A DNA stretch of 35,097 bases. Origin: Singulisphaera sp. GP187 (GTDB taxonomy: Bacteria; Planctomycetota; Planctomycetia; Gemmatales; Gemmataceae). Below the pieces are notes generated by a model. It was not told the DNA's origin. It did not search any database and worked only from the letters and a program-made list of their open reading frames with translations. Both the position numbers and the translations under genes were made by a program. Positions 25,144 through 31,910 of the stretch are shown here, one piece after another. How positions within the stretch are numbered: the first letter of the stretch is position 1; each line of letters begins with the position of its first letter. Location of the stretch: NCBI GenBank assembly GCA_945905925.1, contig CAMDQN010000068.1, forward strand, positions 1 to 35,097, in the 5' to 3' direction.

Positions 25144-26382
25144 TCAATTCACGCGGCGGTCGAAGTCGGGGATCTGCGTGAACGCGATCCGCGATGGCGC
25201 CGCGTCGCGCATCCCGAACATCGCGCCCAGGTACACCACGCTCGCGCCGAACTCCGCGTTGATCGTGTCCATCGCGGCCGAGATGTTTTCCGCCTGGCGG
25301 TCTTCGTCGAATAAGGACGGCGTTGCGCTCCGCGCCGGCACAAGTTCGCTCAGGACCGTGCCCACCTTGAACGGCACGCGCCCGCGAATGCGCATTTCCC
25401 ACAACTTCGCCGCCGCCGCAACCAGCGCCGGCGTGTCTTGACATCGCGGCACGCGAACGCTCTCTTCCCACCACACCGAATCGCCGCGATCAGCACCCAA
25501 GAAGCTCGCGCCTACCGATATCGAACCGCACCAGTAGTCGATTTTCCGCAACCGCGCCGCGGCCTTGTGAACCAGTCGCATGAGCACGCCATAAGCGCCT
25601 TCGTCGGTGCGCAACTCCGGCGGTAAAATGTGCGAATGGCTCACGGTCTGGCGCCGCGTGGGCGCGTCCGCGACCTCTTCGCCGTGCAGCAGCCGATACC
25701 AGCGCTCGCCGTGAATCTTGCTGCCCCATACCTCCGCAAGCGTCTTCGCGGGCGCGGCGCAGAACTGCGATACGGTGAAGATGCCGTACAGCTTCAGCCG
25801 CCGTTCCATGCGCGGCCCGACACCGGGAAAGTCGGTCAACTGTAATCGGTGAAGCGCGTGCGGAACATCAGTGTCTGTGAGTGTGGTTAAGCCGTCTGGT
25901 TTCTTCATGTCGGCTGCGACCTTCGCCAGCAGCACGCTCGGGCCGGCGCCAATCGAACACCGCATGTAGTCGCCGGCCAGTTCGCGAATCGCTCTTTTGA
26001 TTTGCTTCGCGATCGTTATGACCTTTTCGGGCGTGCGTTCGTCGCCGACGAGCCGGCACGACATCTCGTCGATGGACATGACGCTCTCGATCGGAATGAC
26101 GCTTCGCACGGCCGCGAGAATGCGGTTGTGCATCGTGACGTACCGCCGGTGGTCCGCGACTACGAACACGACCGTCCCTTTGGAAAGCTTCCGTGCTTCC
26201 CACACCGGCGTGCCGGTCTTGATGCCGAACGCTTTCGCCTCGTAGCTCGCCGCGATGCACGCGGTGGTCTCCGCGTCGGTGGGGATCACCGCGACTGGGC
26301 GGTATCGCAGTTTCGGATCGTCTTGTTGTTCGACAGACGCGAAGAACGAGTTCATGTCGATGAACAGGTGTCGGATCGGCAC
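25144..26382 (-). CDS. Y-family (DinB/UmuC-like) translesion DNA polymerase
   Basis: Copies past damaged bases. The 412-aa protein has the palm motif LFIDMNSFFASVEQQ at the N-terminus, the YEAKAFGIKTG finger segment, the second acidic motif SIDEMSCRL, the GAGPSVLLAKVAADMKKP segment and an HhH-like TDFPGVGPRMERRLKLYGI. A little-finger domain follows. Near the C-terminus TPSLFDE resembles a beta-clamp-binding peptide. GTG 26382 is chosen because GGAGGT lies 6 nt upstream and the protein then begins MPIRHLFIDMN, as in the family. Starts further upstream (ATG 26403, or 26583 inside the palindromic element) add unrelated residues. No ImuA/ImuB/DnaE2 partners and no obvious LexA box are visible. 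Confidence 0.9.
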   Translation of the reverse strand: MPIRHLFIDMNSFFASVEQQDDPKLRYRPVAVIPTDAETTACIAASYEAKAFGIKTGTPVWEARKLSKGTVVFVVADHRRYVTMHNRILAAVRSVIPIESVMSIDEMSCRLVGDERTPEKVITIAKQIKRAIRELAGDYMRCSIGAGPSVLLAKVAADMKKPDGLTTLTDTDVPHALHRLQLTDFPGVGPRMERRLKLYGIFTVSQFCAAPAKTLAEVWGSKIHGERWYRLLHGEEVADAPTRRQTVSHSHILPPELRTDEGAYGVLMRLVHKAAARLRKIDYWCGSISVGASFLGADRGDSVWWEESVRVPRCQDTPALVAAAAKLWEMRIRGRVPFKVGTVLSELVPARSATPSLFDEDRQAENISAAMDTINAEFGASVVYLGAMFGMRDAAPSRIAFTQIPDFDRRVN

Positions 26383-26474
26383 GGCACGACCTCCACGGAT
26401 CATCCGTTCACCACGAGCAGATGTAGTGTATATCTGTGCGCTATGTTTCTCCGAACGCAACCGCGGGCCGGTTT

Positions 26475-26592
26475 TTTTGGTAGGTGCCGCTTGCCGAGAG
26501 GCACGGTTGTGCGACTCAGATCGCTTATCGAACGTCCGTGTTGCGATTCGCCATGCGAAAGCGTGCCGCTCGGCGAGCGACACCTACCAAAA
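26475..26592. repeat. Palindromic element with 30-bp arms upstream of the polymerase gene
   Basis: Arms 26475-26504 (TTTTGGTAGGTGCCGCTTGC start) and 26563-26592 (ending CACCTACCAAAA) pair at 27 of 30 positions with a 58-bp centre. It occupies most of the 290-bp gap between the polymerase start and the kinase remnant. It has no coding capacity of its own. Confidence 0.6.
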
Positions 26593-27006: not shown

Positions 27007-29352
27007 ATGGCGATCCTCACGCAGGCTGAAATTGTCGCCCACCTCGCAGGCCGAGCCGCGCCGCCCGGCGGGCTGGGCGAACTTCATCCGCTCGCCGTGC
27101 GGCTGTGCTTGCTTCAGCAAACGCTCAAACCGGTCACGTCCCCGCGGCGAGTCGTGCTGTTCGCGGCCGACCACGGGCCGGACGCCGAGAGCCGCGTCGG
27201 AACCGCGATCCACCATACCGCCGAAGGCGGCTCCGCGACCGCGGTTCTCGCGAAGACCACGCATACTGATTACGTGCTGATCGATGTCGGGTCGCGCACC
27301 GACTCGCTACCGGAATCGCTGCATTATCGCTGTCGCAAGGTACGCGCGGGTTCGCACGACTTCACACACCAGCCGGCACTGACCGCCGATGAGTTCCGCG
27401 CCGCGTTCGTCGTCGGCCAGAAAGAAGCGGAACAGGCGCGCGACGTCGGGATGAAGTTGGTCGCGACCGATGCAATTGGTGCCGAGAGTGCGGCTGTCGC
27501 GGCACGCGTGCTCGCGCAGACCGACCCGTCCGACGACCCCATGAGCGCGTTTGGCGCGGTAGGCGGAACCGATGTCGCGGCTGTTGCCGGGTTCATCGCG
27601 AAGGCCGTCGAACTCGGCCTCGTGGTGCTGATCGAGGGCCGGGTCGCGTTCGCGGGACTGCACGTCGCGGAGCGACTGTACCCCGGCACTGCGGCGAAGG
27701 TGATCGAAAGGCAACTGCCGCCCCCGCCGCCCATCCCGTTGTCGCCTGCGTTCCGCGCCTCTCTAGTGGGACAATCTCGACTGGCTCCAGCGGAAGTGAA
27801 GGGAGACAAAGAGGACGTTTGCTTTCTTCCAACCGCCAGGGGCGGAGCGTTCTCCTCCGAAGGCCTCGGTGCGCTGCTCGCGTTCCCGCTGCTCGACGCG
27901 GCGGCGACCGTTGTTGCGCGAACGGTCCGCCGCGACACCACCGGCCGCGAAGCCGCGCGCGCGAAGCCGGCGCGCAAAGTGGCCGTGTTCACCGGTAGCT
28001 TCGACCCGCCCACGACGTACCACCGCCGGGCCGCGATGGCGCTTCGCGGGCACGGGTTCGACGAGGTCATCGTGCGCCCGGCCGGACCGCGGTGCGACAG
28101 CCCGGACATCGAACACGCGAAGCCGATTCACCGCGCGGTGATGGCCGACCTCGCGTTCCGCGACCTCCCCGGCGTGATCGTCGATCTGTCCGATGTCGAT
28201 GACGCGGTGTTCACGCCGCACTTCTCGTTCGACGACTTACTAGCGAACCGCGGCGAGGTGTGGCACGTCGTACCCGCGGAGTTCCTCATCGGCGGACGCA
28301 ACGGCGATTCCGCCATTCACACGAAATGGGAACTCGGCACGGACGCCTGGAACAACCGTAAGTTCGTCGTACTGCACGCGTCGGACGCGCCACCGGACCC
28401 GTCCGACCGTCCGCCGGTGTGTCAACTCGTTGCGGTCGATGGGCGCGTCCCCACGGAAGACATCCGGTTGCGCGTGTTCCAGGGCGGCAAGTCGAAGCCC
28501 GACGTGACCGACGACGTGGAAGAGTACATCCGCCGGTACAAGTTATTCAGCGGCATGTCGGCGCCACGCGAGACTCGCGTGCGGCTCAACGACATCCGTC
28601 TGAAAATCGTCCATGCGGACAAGAGCGAGAAGGCGCTGCGGGCCGCGGAACCGTACCGCAGGTTCGAGTCGAGTGAGCCAACACATATTTTGGTGCTTGG
28701 CGGTGACGGCACGATGCTCCAAGCAATTCGCGACCACTGGCGGTTGCGGCTCCCGTTCCTGGGCTTGAACGCGGGCACGCTCGGCTTTCTACTGAACGAG
28801 TCGCTGCCAACGGAACTACCCAACACCGAGGTGGTGCTGTACCGGATGCCGATGATGCGCGTGGACGCCGAACTGCCGGATGGGAAGCGGGTGGAATCGT
28901 TCGCGTTCGCGGACGCGTGGGTGGAGCGCGACAGCGGCCAGGCGGCGTGGCTGAAGATCGACGTGGACGGCAAGACGCAGGTGCCGCGCGTGGTCGGTGA
29001 CGGCTTGCTCGTCGCGACGCCGGCCGGTTCGAGCGCCTACGCACGTGCGATGGGCGCGACCTCTGTTCCGCTGACCGCGCCGGTGTTCACGCTGGCGGGG
29101 TCGAACGTGTTCCGACCGCGATTCTGGAAGCCGGTCGCGCTGCCCGAAACGACGCGGGTGTCGCTGACGAGTCTGGACTTTAACGGCAAGCGCCCGATCC
29201 GCGGGTTCATCGACGGCCAGCCGATCGGCGCGGTGAAGTCGATGCACGTGCGCGTGAGTACGGTCGCGATGGTGGAACTCGGCTTCACGCCGGAGTTCGA
29301 CCTCTCGGCACGCCTGTTGCGATCGATGTTCCCGCCGTCGGACGCTCTGTAG
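27007..29352 (+). CDS. Trifunctional-type fusion: CobT-like - NMN adenylyltransferase-like - NAD kinase
   Basis: One 781-aa frame with three pyridine-nucleotide modules. Residues 1-~310 resemble CobT (nicotinate mononucleotide:dimethylbenzimidazole phosphoribosyltransferase): PPGGLGELHPLAVRL, FAADHG (55-57), GAVGGTDVAAVAG (from about 184) and SSEGLGALLAFPLLDAA, where Glu285 aligns with the catalytic base. The usual GEMGIGNTT and SHRSAEPGH blocks are degenerate. Residues ~324-515 resemble NadD: VAVFTGSFDPPTTYH (T336/H339 in place of HxGH), then TEDIR (483-487) and VEEYIRRYKLF. Residues ~520-781 are an NAD kinase with GGDGT (565-569), LNAGTLGFLLNE (Asn588) and TPAGSSAYA. ATG 27007 gives the CobT N-terminus; no strong ribosome binding site is visible. 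An internal ATG at 28555 could start a separate kinase. Likely role in NAD(P) formation, inferred. Confidence 0.85.
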   Translation: MAILTQAEIVAHLAGRAAPPGGLGELHPLAVRLCLLQQTLKPVTSPRRVVLFAADHGPDAESRVGTAIHHTAEGGSATAVLAKTTHTDYVLIDVGSRTDSLPESLHYRCRKVRAGSHDFTHQPALTADEFRAAFVVGQKEAEQARDVGMKLVATDAIGAESAAVAARVLAQTDPSDDPMSAFGAVGGTDVAAVAGFIAKAVELGLVVLIEGRVAFAGLHVAERLYPGTAAKVIERQLPPPPPIPLSPAFRASLVGQSRLAPAEVKGDKEDVCFLPTARGGAFSSEGLGALLAFPLLDAAATVVARTVRRDTTGREAARAKPARKVAVFTGSFDPPTTYHRRAAMALRGHGFDEVIVRPAGPRCDSPDIEHAKPIHRAVMADLAFRDLPGVIVDLSDVDDAVFTPHFSFDDLLANRGEVWHVVPAEFLIGGRNGDSAIHTKWELGTDAWNNRKFVVLHASDAPPDPSDRPPVCQLVAVDGRVPTEDIRLRVFQGGKSKPDVTDDVEEYIRRYKLFSGMSAPRETRVRLNDIRLKIVHADKSEKALRAAEPYRRFESSEPTHILVLGGDGTMLQAIRDHWRLRLPFLGLNAGTLGFLLNESLPTELPNTEVVLYRMPMMRVDAELPDGKRVESFAFADAWVERDSGQAAWLKIDVDGKTQVPRVVGDGLLVATPAGSSAYARAMGATSVPLTAPVFTLAGSNVFRPRFWKPVALPETTRVSLTSLDFNGKRPIRGFIDGQPIGAVKSMHVRVSTVAMVELGFTPEFDLSARLLRSMFPPSDAL

Positions 29353-29441: not shown

Positions 29442-30854
29442 TTAGCTGATCTTCCAGCCGCCGCGGCGCTCGCGAGAGAGCATCTTGTTCGCCTCCTCGT
29501 CGGCGAAGGTGTACTTCTTCGCGTCCCACGCCAGCGGCTTGCTCTTGCCCAGGCGCAGCGCGACCGTACCCAGGTGACACACAATCACCGAACCGGCGCC
29601 GACTTCCACGCCGCAGATTGGCGTCTCGCGGGTCTTCACGCAGTCGAGGAAGTTACCCATGTGGTTCGTCGGGACCGACGGATACAGCTTCGGCTTGTCG
29701 GCACCCAGTTCGGCGAAGATCGCTTTGTCGCTCGCGAGCAGCAACCCGCGACTCACAAACAACGTGCCCTTGTCGCCCTTCACCAGCACGCCGTTCTCGC
29801 CGCCGGTCAGGTCGCCCTTACGCGCGTTGCCGTTCGTTTCGACCAACCCCTTCACGGTCGAACCGGCCCCGTGACTCACTTCGACCTGCACGTTGTTGGC
29901 GTAGGTGTGGAGCACCTTGAACGTCTCGTGGCAGTTGTACCCGTCGCCCTTGCTGTAGGGCTTGGACGCGTCCACGACCGACACGCTCGACGGGCCGCTG
30001 CCGTCCATGTTCAGCATCCACTGCGCGATGTCGATGTGGTGCGCGCCCCAGTCGGTCATCTTCCCGCCGCTGTACTCGTACCACCAGCGGAACTCGTAGT
30101 GGCAGTTCGTCTTCCCACCGTCGAGGCGGAACGGAACTTTCGCGGTCGGCCCGAGCCACATGTCCCAGTCGAGTTCCTTCGGCGGCTCGACTTCCTTGAT
30201 CGGCCCGCTCTGCGGGCTGCCACCGATGCGGCACTCGATCGTCTGAACTTTGCCCACGCGCCCGGCGCGGACGAGTTCGGTCGCGAGCCGGAACCGGCCG
30301 GCCATCTCGGTGCGCTGCTGGCTACCGGTCTGAAGCACGCGTTTGGTGTCGGCGGTCACCTTCTTCATCGCGAGGGCTTCTTCGATTGTCAGCGTCAGCG
30401 GCTTCTCGCAATACACGTCCTTGCCGGCCTTCATCGCGGCGATGGCAATGATCGCGTGCCAGTGGTCCGGCGTCGCGACGATGACCGCGTCCACGTCCTT
30501 GCTGGCGATGAGTTCGCGGAAGTCTTTGTGCCCCTTCACCTCGTAGCCATCGGCCTTGTACTGCTTGACCGCGTGATCGACGTGCCGGCTATCCACGTCG
30601 CACACCGCGGTGAAGTTCACCTTGTCCTTGAACTTCTTGGCTTCGCCGTAGAGCGCGTTGGATCGCCGCGGGTTCGGGCCGACGCCGATGACGCCGATGT
30701 TGATCTTGCCGTTGGCGCCGGGCGCCCTGTCCTGGGCGCGAGCGGCGGCGCCGAAGAAGTCGCGAGCGTGCCACGCCGGCAGGCCGGCGAGCGTGAGAGC
30801 GGCCACCGAGCGGTTCATGAACCCCCGGCGGGAGAGGTTTCCGCGGTCCAACAT
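29442..30854 (-). CDS. Tat-exported Gfo/Idh/MocA family oxidoreductase
   Basis: A 470-aa predicted NAD(P)-dependent sugar or sugar-derivative oxidoreductase, exported by the Tat path. The N-terminus NLSRRGFMNRSVAALTLAGL holds the twin-arginine motif. The Rossmann strand INIGVIGVGPNPRRSN is followed by VDAVIVATPDHWHAIIA and the signature CEKPLTLTIEEA. The catalytic-domain block KMTDWGAHHIDIAQWML holds the usual His residues. The C-terminal part contains the family beta-sheet. ATG 30854 is chosen because the Tat motif then sits at the N-terminus and a GGGG stretch lies about 8 nt upstream. Such exported members are numerous in planctomycetes; substrates are mostly unknown. It is divergent from the DUF4261 gene. 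Confidence 0.9.
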   Translation of the reverse strand: MLDRGNLSRRGFMNRSVAALTLAGLPAWHARDFFGAAARAQDRAPGANGKINIGVIGVGPNPRRSNALYGEAKKFKDKVNFTAVCDVDSRHVDHAVKQYKADGYEVKGHKDFRELIASKDVDAVIVATPDHWHAIIAIAAMKAGKDVYCEKPLTLTIEEALAMKKVTADTKRVLQTGSQQRTEMAGRFRLATELVRAGRVGKVQTIECRIGGSPQSGPIKEVEPPKELDWDMWLGPTAKVPFRLDGGKTNCHYEFRWWYEYSGGKMTDWGAHHIDIAQWMLNMDGSGPSSVSVVDASKPYSKGDGYNCHETFKVLHTYANNVQVEVSHGAGSTVKGLVETNGNARKGDLTGGENGVLVKGDKGTLFVSRGLLLASDKAIFAELGADKPKLYPSVPTNHMGNFLDCVKTRETPICGVEVGAGSVIVCHLGTVALRLGKSKPLAWDAKKYTFADEEANKMLSRERRGGWKIS

Positions 30855-30986
30855 GACGAAGCCCCTTTGCGAAACAACTGGAGTGGTGAGGAGAGTGGTA
30901 GAGCGAAGGAATATGATAAACGAGACGGCGCGCGGTGTGGAAAAGAAACTGATGTTTAGCTGCGACCCGGAGGGGAGCGTCACACG

Positions 30987-31910
30987 ATGGCCGACGATTT
31001 GTTGGACCGGTTCTTCGGGAAGGGCGTGCCGCGAATCGGCGGGCCAGCGGTCGCGAACCCGCGCCTCGCCGACCCGGTGGGGCTTCAGTGCCTCTTCGAT
31101 ATTCCGCTCGACCTCGACGCGGAATCGCTGGCGCTCGCGGTCCGCGACTACCACCCAGACCTCGCGCAAGCAACCGTTGAGTTGTACCACGTTCCGCCGC
31201 CCGCGAAGCCGACCTCGCTCGAACCCGCGATCATGGGTCTGGTCGCGTGGGGCGCGAACGTCATCAAGTTGGTGGCGTTCGCAAACGCAATGCCCGCGAA
31301 CGCGGTGAAAGCGTGCGTCCAACCGGCGCACTTCGACCCGGAGTACAAGGAGATCGCGTATCGGCATCAGGCGCACGTGATGCTGTACTACAACGGGTAC
31401 GACCACGATCCACTGGAACAGTACGTTGCGCTCGCGGCGGTCGCGGGCGTGCTGACGATGTTCGGTGCGGTGTTCACGCTGAACGAGAACGCCCGCACCG
31501 CGATCCCGGCCCCGGTGCTGATGCCGCACGAAGAAGACGACGGCAACATGCTCGCGGCGCTCCGAGGTTTGCCGCTGACGCTACTCTATTGCGGGTTTGT
31601 GAAGCTCGAAGTGGAGGGGCAACCGGGCGTCTGGATGCGCACTTACGGCTGCCACCGGTTCGGTCTACCGGACCTCGCGCTGCACGCGAGCGACCACAAT
31701 TCGGCGCGGTTCACGTTCGAGTTGTTCAGCAACGCGCTCGCGTACTTGCGCACGGCGGGCCAAACGTTCGCGCCGGGCCACACGATGCAAGTGGGTGACG
31801 GCATGTTCTTGCGATTGCGCTCTCGCACACCGGACGAATGGTATCTGGACAGTGAGGGCGAAATGCTTGTCGCGGATCGCGTCGCGGGGCTTTCCGATAA
31901 GGTCGAGTGA
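30987..31910 (+). CDS. DUF4261-type protein
   Basis: A 307-aa cytoplasmic protein without signal peptide. The N-terminal half shows a DLLDRFFGKG start, then the strand GLQCLFDIPLDLDAESLALA, consistent with a DUF4261 body. The C-terminal segment MRTYGCHRFGLPDLALHA, then SARFTFELFSNALAYLR and GQTFAPGHTM, matches my memory of the DUF4261 C-terminal domain (YG...FG.PD...). GGAGG is present about 10 nt before ATG 30987. No biochemical role is established for the family. It precedes the ABC-2 permease by 120 bp and is divergent from the oxidoreductase. Confidence 0.7.
   Translation: MADDLLDRFFGKGVPRIGGPAVANPRLADPVGLQCLFDIPLDLDAESLALAVRDYHPDLAQATVELYHVPPPAKPTSLEPAIMGLVAWGANVIKLVAFANAMPANAVKACVQPAHFDPEYKEIAYRHQAHVMLYYNGYDHDPLEQYVALAAVAGVLTMFGAVFTLNENARTAIPAPVLMPHEEDDGNMLAALRGLPLTLLYCGFVKLEVEGQPGVWMRTYGCHRFGLPDLALHASDHNSARFTFELFSNALAYLRTAGQTFAPGHTMQVGDGMFLRLRSRTPDEWYLDSEGEMLVADRVAGLSDKVE

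Follow-up and report, generated by a model that had tools for sequence, protein, structure and literature searches.

The window, the whole stretch of 35,097 nucleotides analyzed here, contains on its forward strand a stop-free reading frame (27007-29352 in the ORF list) that begins with an ATG and encodes a protein of 781 residues. It combines a CobT-like, a NadD-like and an NAD kinase (NADK) domain in a single chain. This three-domain frame is real: the CobT-like part runs into the NadD-like part as one open frame in 10 of the 14 genomes with the layout, and an assembly artefact was rejected on that ground. The parts of the frame are:

27007..29352, + strand: whole frame, CobT-like, NadD-like and NAD kinase domains, 781 aa (ORF, Pfam, NCBIfam, related genomes)
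27007..27918, + strand: CobT-like domain, residues 1-304 (core 1-236, C-terminal tail 276-304), without the catalytic segments, a predicted pseudo-CobT (PF02277 126.5 bits, motif table, core dN/dS)
27472..27474, + strand: Ala156 codon, at the Glu174 position of S. enterica CobT (alignments)
27715..27831, + strand: proline-rich variable stretch, residues 237-275, replacing the AHxSxEPGH segment (alignments)
27859..27861, + strand: Glu285 codon, at the Glu317 position of S. enterica CobT; Asp in 4/10 complete fused rows (alignment)
27919..27972, + strand: linker from the CobT-like tail to the NadD-like domain, residues 305-322 (alignment)
27973..28554, + strand: NadD-like domain, residues 323-516, with a NadD fold in the model and a degenerate active site (NCBIfam, motif alignments, structure model)
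28012..28023, + strand: TTYH, residues 336-339, replacing the T/HxGH motif (alignments)
28447..28467, + strand: VPTEDIR, residues 481-487, replacing the SSTxxR motif (alignments)
28564..29349, + strand: NAD kinase domain, residues 520-781 (Pfam, NCBIfam, PDB sequence matches, structure matches)
28699..28713, + strand: GGDGT motif of NAD kinase, residues 565-569 (alignment, 32/32 rows)
28909..28914, + strand: Ala635-Asp636, where other NADKs have Asn-Glu/Asp (alignments)

Upstream of the fusion, on the opposite strand, lies a gene for a Y-family DNA polymerase (impB/mucB; 25144-26583, - strand), which is kept nearby in genomes G009, G010, G012 and G013. A long reverse frame (29442-31529, - strand) encodes a Gfo/Idh/MocA oxidoreductase in its later part, and its first stretch may be a mere open frame in G+C-rich DNA. 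The genes flanking the fusion are common to the same four genomes, and partly to G020, but not to the four fusion-less members of the genus.

Domain architecture and active sites

A preliminary description had proposed CobT-, NadD- and NADK-type domains in one frame, and its domain order and approximate borders hold (CobT-like 1-304, NadD-like 323-516, NADK 520-781), as does the fusion itself according to the ORF, Pfam, NCBIfam and the NadD fold. Profile searches recover the three domains to different degrees: the CobT and NADK parts exceed the Pfam cut-offs of DBI_PRT and NAD_kinase, and the NadD part falls short of its NCBIfam cut-off. The CobT-like part scores 126.5 bits with DBI_PRT (PF02277; cut-off 22.6), with partial coverage and its best stretch at residues 7-170, and 103-107 bits with the NCBIfam CobT models, TIGR03160 giving 103.1 against an equivalog cut-off of 319.3. 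The kinase part scores 34.9 bits with NAD_kinase (PF01513; gathering score 25.5), 15.5-18.8 bits with the C-terminal NADK domain PF20143, below its gathering score of 23.7, and 151.4 bits over residues 532-775 with PRK04761, which lies below the equivalog cut-off of 211 yet is the top-scoring NADK model. The NadD model TIGR00482 gives 27.9 bits (E 2e-6) over residues 327-513, against an equivalog cut-off of 112.45. PDB sequence matches of the 781-residue protein include T. thermophilus CobT, several NADKs, and mycobacterial and B. subtilis NadD. In a model of the full-length structure, confidence is mostly good from residue 321 onwards (ten-residue block means of pLDDT 60-96 up to residue 780), but pLDDT stays under 50 for residues 1-192, a region that few sequences cover; among the structure matches listed for this model (Foldseek, VIA), all are NADKs.

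The kinase domain has an NADK fold, with Z 24.9-27.1 among the 50 matches listed to NADK structures (7qvs_B: Z 27.1, rmsd 3.1, 250 aligned). GGDGT is present in 32/32 aligned NADK rows. In the 13 tri-fusion rows, A, S, G or C takes the place of the Asn in NE/D, a characteristic NADK motif; the bi-fusions of G015, G016, G019, G023, G072 and G073 show a replacement of this kind too, and the remaining aligned rows, deeper relatives included, keep Asn. The window has Ala-Asp. In 18 of the 19 genomes of the genus there is a single NADK over cut-off, and it is the bi- or tri-fusion itself, the exception being G018 (82% complete), which has none; matches below cut-off occur in all genomes of the genus but one. 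A case that speaks against the reading proposed below is G094, which encodes a second, ordinary NADK. Since NADK is essential and no other copy in the genome exceeds the cut-off, the fused domain is probably active, even though the Asn of NE/D is Ala in the window.

An isolated model of the NadD-like domain (mean pLDDT 87.9) has the NadD fold: its top ten matches to NadD structures show Z 20.1-20.8 and rmsd 2.3-2.7 over 170-183 aligned residues, the best being 4ymi_A (Z 20.8, rmsd 2.3, 173 aligned). The active site is another matter. SSTxxR, a motif of NadD, reads VPTEDIR in the window, and T/HxGH reads TTYH, with Gly replaced by Tyr and the second His retained; the Asp of GxD is Glu, and the pyridine-stacking His has no counterpart in the alignment. 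For comparison, the active site of E. coli NadD is described as comprising His19, His45, Arg46 and Asp109 (PMC1249556). Copies at the loci L064, L065, L067 and L068 keep GxD and SSxxIR though not the T/HxGH glycine, and that of L064 reaches 61 bits with the NadD model.

A separate NadD over cut-off is encoded in all 19 genomes of the genus, including that of the window (G000:C232:379-960, 164 bits), and, across the order, in 31 of the 33 genomes that carry a bi- or tri-fusion, so that in those genomes the fused domain is not needed as the NadD of the cell. The remaining two, G034 (93% complete, 7% contamination) and G089 (84% complete), both carriers of NadD-NADK, gave no NadD match at E 1e-15. 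For the genus, the suggested search for separate genes showed a separate nadD throughout and no second NADK over cut-off. A further NadD-like match of the window genome, on G000:C36, was rejected as NadD, as it has an intact GTFDPVHYGH and SST and resembles CoaD, which we take it to be.

The match of the CobT-like domain is incomplete in comparison with free CobT, as it lacks some 30 residues beyond position 170 as well as the segment that precedes the C-terminal tail. By the numbering of an alignment with S. enterica CobT, the Glu174 position holds A, L or G in 13/13 fused rows (Ala156 in the window), and the segment with Lys213, presumably a functional CobT residue, is gone in 12/12 fused rows that reach the region, the G017 row ending before it at a contig end and so not being counted. 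The GVSxxP loop is missing in 12 of the 13 rows and unrelated in the remaining one, and the AHxSxEPGH segment is replaced in all ten complete rows. The Glu317 position is retained as Glu in six of these ten rows, among them that of the window (Glu285), and is Asp in four. Free CobTs, in an alignment of all but one of the order's 16 full-length loci, keep G(V/I)(S/T)xxP, G(E/D)MGI(G/A)N, the Lys of the 213 segment, AxHxSxE(P/A)GH (with A, AG or AS as its first residues) and LGEG(T/S)GA in 15/15 cases; the 174 position is Glu in them, with Asp in one.

E317 is described as the general base of CobT and E174 as a contact of the ribose 2'-OH, and the base of M. jannaschii CobT as a different one (PMC9561151). 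The alignments show that the fused CobT has lost its catalytic segments, and a loss of activity is predicted. Missing motifs do not prove that the domain is inactive, because in the window Glu285 stands at the Glu317 position and the M. jannaschii enzyme uses a different base. The Gemmata proteins are an annotation trap in this respect, since they exceed the Pfam cut-off for CobT though their genomes show neither CobS nor CobU.

Phyletic distribution and the cobalamin pathway

The preliminary description had asked whether other Gemmataceae keep the fusion. The complete CobT-NadD-NADK layout is found in 14 of 102 genomes of the order, all of them in the genus of the window (Gemmata): in ten it is one open frame, in two it is frameshifted in the CobT part (G009, G026), and in two it is split (G017, G021), the joining in the latter being inferred because contigs end between the parts. 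In a further member of the genus, G018, nothing but a CobT-type piece was seen, at the edge of a contig. The NadD-like domain and NADK are joined without CobT in 19 further genomes of the order, spread over eight genera, while in G045 and G047 (genus g20) an NADK of this kind is encoded by itself, unfused. In a search of 392 genomes of the phylum, NadD-NADK was found in two other families, and 22 further matches comprised the kinase part only. Among the best 80 loci of a further scan, the pair also occurs on three Verrucomicrobia contigs (L064, L065, L068) and on a contig labelled Candidatus Doudnabacteria (L067), which is possibly mis-binned.

In a tree of NadD-NADK, in which G025 was not included, one branch (93/94) separates the 13 tri-fusion rows from the rest, and the 13 fused CobTs form one clade (100/100); these trees point to an apparent single origin of the tri-fusion. 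A profile of the fused CobT was run against the ORFs of 39 loci. Apart from L061 and L062, it picked up nothing more than short stretches next to the NadD border in four genomes and a weak match in L024 (16 bits), so that no hidden CobT part was found at these loci. A list of 50 pattern matches to CobT relatives in viral contigs contained none that was confirmed. As a separate observation, three short CobT pieces from other members of the family (G088:C509, G088:C511 and G091:C1193) are 45-63% identical to the fused CobT; two of them contain TGA, and they may be the remains of a second, diverged CobT.

The two kinds of CobT differ sharply in the company they keep. CobS is encoded in 17 of the 102 genomes of the order, and is present in 15/15 genomes with a full-length CobT versus 0/15 with a fused-type CobT. 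Outside this two-way comparison stand G037, which has CobS and a piece of CobT next to a contig end; G091, whose CobT piece contains a stop and which has no CobS; and G074, which has CobS but no listed match to CobT. CobU, over cut-off in 12/102 genomes, has no match in the same 15 fused-type genomes, and the window genome (96.6% complete) has neither CobS nor CobU at E 0.001. CbiB was found in none of the 19 genomes of the genus, and hence even those members that have both CobT and CobS seem unable to make the whole cofactor.

Selection and the role of the added domains

Despite the state of its active site, the CobT core is under purifying selection. By the NG86 method, dN/dS is 0.19-0.34 for the CobT core (8 pairs), 0.07-0.26 for the NadD part and 0.05-0.13 for the NADK part. 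In four of the CobT-core pairs the values are 0.19-0.25, with bootstrap upper limits of 0.27-0.38, and over half of the changes fall at third positions (p<1e-7), while shifted-frame controls on the same DNA give 1.28-2.68. A free CobT pair of the genus stands at 0.30 (0.21-0.41), and three of the eight fused pairs are slightly above it (0.30, 0.33, 0.34). The low values together with the frame controls indicate that the domain is constrained despite its lost active site, which is the main surprise of this protein.

These observations lead us to propose, with a probability of about two in three, that the protein is the sole recognisable NADK of the cell, to which a pseudo-NadD and then a pseudo-CobT were added as non-catalytic modules. 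The simplest history would run from NADK through NadD-NADK to CobT-NadD-NADK. A NadD-like domain would first have joined an NADK of the PRK04761 type, giving the pair now seen in many Gemmataceae and some Verrucomicrobia; in one lineage of Gemmata a CobT would then have been placed in front of it; and the fused CobT would subsequently have lost its catalytic segments while being retained in genomes in which no CobS or CobU is found. Both added domains would descend from enzymes acting on nicotinate mononucleotide. The CobT and NadD parts probably steer or hold the kinase, because their chemistry looks lost and yet selection keeps them: as non-catalytic domains they may hold an oligomer, bind a pyridine nucleotide, or both, and so tune the kinase. 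A feedback by NADP through the NadD-like domain is conceivable, given that structures of NadD with bound NADP, by their titles (4ymi, 4s1o, 4ybr), are among its closest matches.

A non-catalytic control or sensing role for the added domains is close to this best reading. Its more specific form, a tandem sensor of pyridine nucleotides that gates NADP formation, in which the pseudo-NadD would read a dinucleotide (e.g. in NADP feedback) and the pseudo-CobT would read a mononucleotide or set the oligomer, is a tentative proposal to which we give about a third of the weight of the more general one.

Somewhat more doubtful still is the opposite view, which sees in the CobT part a relic in decay, kept open only since a stop would cut off the kinase. 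Its catalytic residues are lost, it changes faster than the NadD and NADK parts and has frameshifts in 2 of the 14 genomes, and the linker is highly variable. Against this stand the dN/dS of 0.19-0.25 in four pairs, when shifted frames of the same DNA give at least 1.28 and a free CobT pair 0.30, and the conservation of the core residues across nine aligned proteins. In Gemmata sp. IIL30 (G009; L061 3569-3671), a single base is missing from a G-rich run within the CobT part, as compared with the close relative G010, where this part is intact; in G026 the frame changes twice. These frameshifts may be sequencing errors, or the CobT part may be dispensable there; if real, these two genomes would make NadD-NADK alone.

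We consider it improbable that the protein is an active multifunctional enzyme whose CobT-like and NadD-like domains act on NaMN and feed the kinase. The ancestral enzymes do use NaMN or its products, the NadD-like domain has a NadD fold, and the window has Glu at the 317 position. However, the catalytic segments of the fused CobT are deleted or replaced, the glycine of T/HxGH is replaced and SSTxxR is lost. The catalytic flow from NaMN through NaAD to NADP that the preliminary description envisaged finds no support, given these losses and the separate NadD in 19/19 genomes. Its suggestion of a CobT running in reverse fares no better: the fused CobT lacks residues that free CobTs keep, CobS and CobU were not found, and the reaction would require alpha-ribazole phosphate, which is normally made by CobT itself.

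Equally improbable is that the frame gives rise to two proteins, in which translation of NadD-NADK begins internally while the CobT part is separate or untranslated. NadD-NADK is indeed a gene of its own in relatives outside the tri-fusion lineage, and the frameshifts of G009 and G026 would require an internal start if real. Each of the nine aligned proteins has a Met at residue 1 of the window's protein, to which they were trimmed; no clear Shine-Dalgarno sequence was seen before 27007, which is not decisive. In the 70 codons before GSFDPP no start codon position is common to all nine proteins, and between -66 and -5 the window lacks ATG, GTG and TTG altogether. A GTG at -5, present in 6/9, would as a start cut into the first strand, and the internal start at 28555 (M517) that had been put forward is a Met in only 4/9. 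Least probable of all is a new catalytic activity of the CobT-like domain: a conserved core with a changed active site would fit it, but the deletions on the active-site side are large, and the alignment shows by eye no new invariant cluster of catalytic type in place of the old segments.

Among known systems, the protein shares with NADK (NADK/PpnK; PRK04761, PF01513) the kinase fold, GGDGT and its standing as the genome's sole NADK over cut-off, but has two extra N-terminal domains, Ala for the Asn of NE/D and a score below the PRK04761 cut-off. It shares with NadD (TIGR00482) the fold (Z ~20) and a weak sequence match, but differs in TTYH, VPTEDIR, the Glu for the active-site Asp and a score of 27.9 versus 112.45 bits. 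With CobT (PF02277, TIGR03160; NaMN:DMB phosphoribosyltransferase) it has in common the N-terminal core and part of the C-terminal tail, but lacks Glu174, the Lys213 segment, the GVSxxP loop and AHxSxEPGH, in a genome without CobS. PRK14076, a bifunctional NADP phosphatase/NAD kinase by its name, likewise fuses NADK to another domain, but one named as a phosphatase, unlike here. The BluB/CobT2 fusion of Propionibacterium freudenreichii, described as having enzyme activity in vitamin B12 synthesis (PMC4657239), likewise joins a CobT to another enzyme, whereas the CobT of the present protein has degenerated and its partner is a kinase that serves NADP synthesis. In agreement with the preliminary description, which knew of no enzyme with this layout, no description of a CobT-NadD-NADK or NadD-NADK protein was found in the open-access literature by title or the beginning of the abstract.

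How large the NADP pool becomes is determined by NADK. If the proposed reading as non-catalytic modules is borne out, these proteins would form a series provided by nature in which to test how regulators arise from dead enzymes: the free NADK of G045 and G047, NadD-NADK with near-normal SSxxIR and GxD in Verrucomicrobia, NadD-NADK with degraded motifs in Gemmataceae, and CobT-NadD-NADK in Gemmata.

As a minor observation on the linker, that of L005 and L061 contains LSPSPFRGGVGE, which resembles a translated dispersed repeat, and these relatives differ there by 51 bases.
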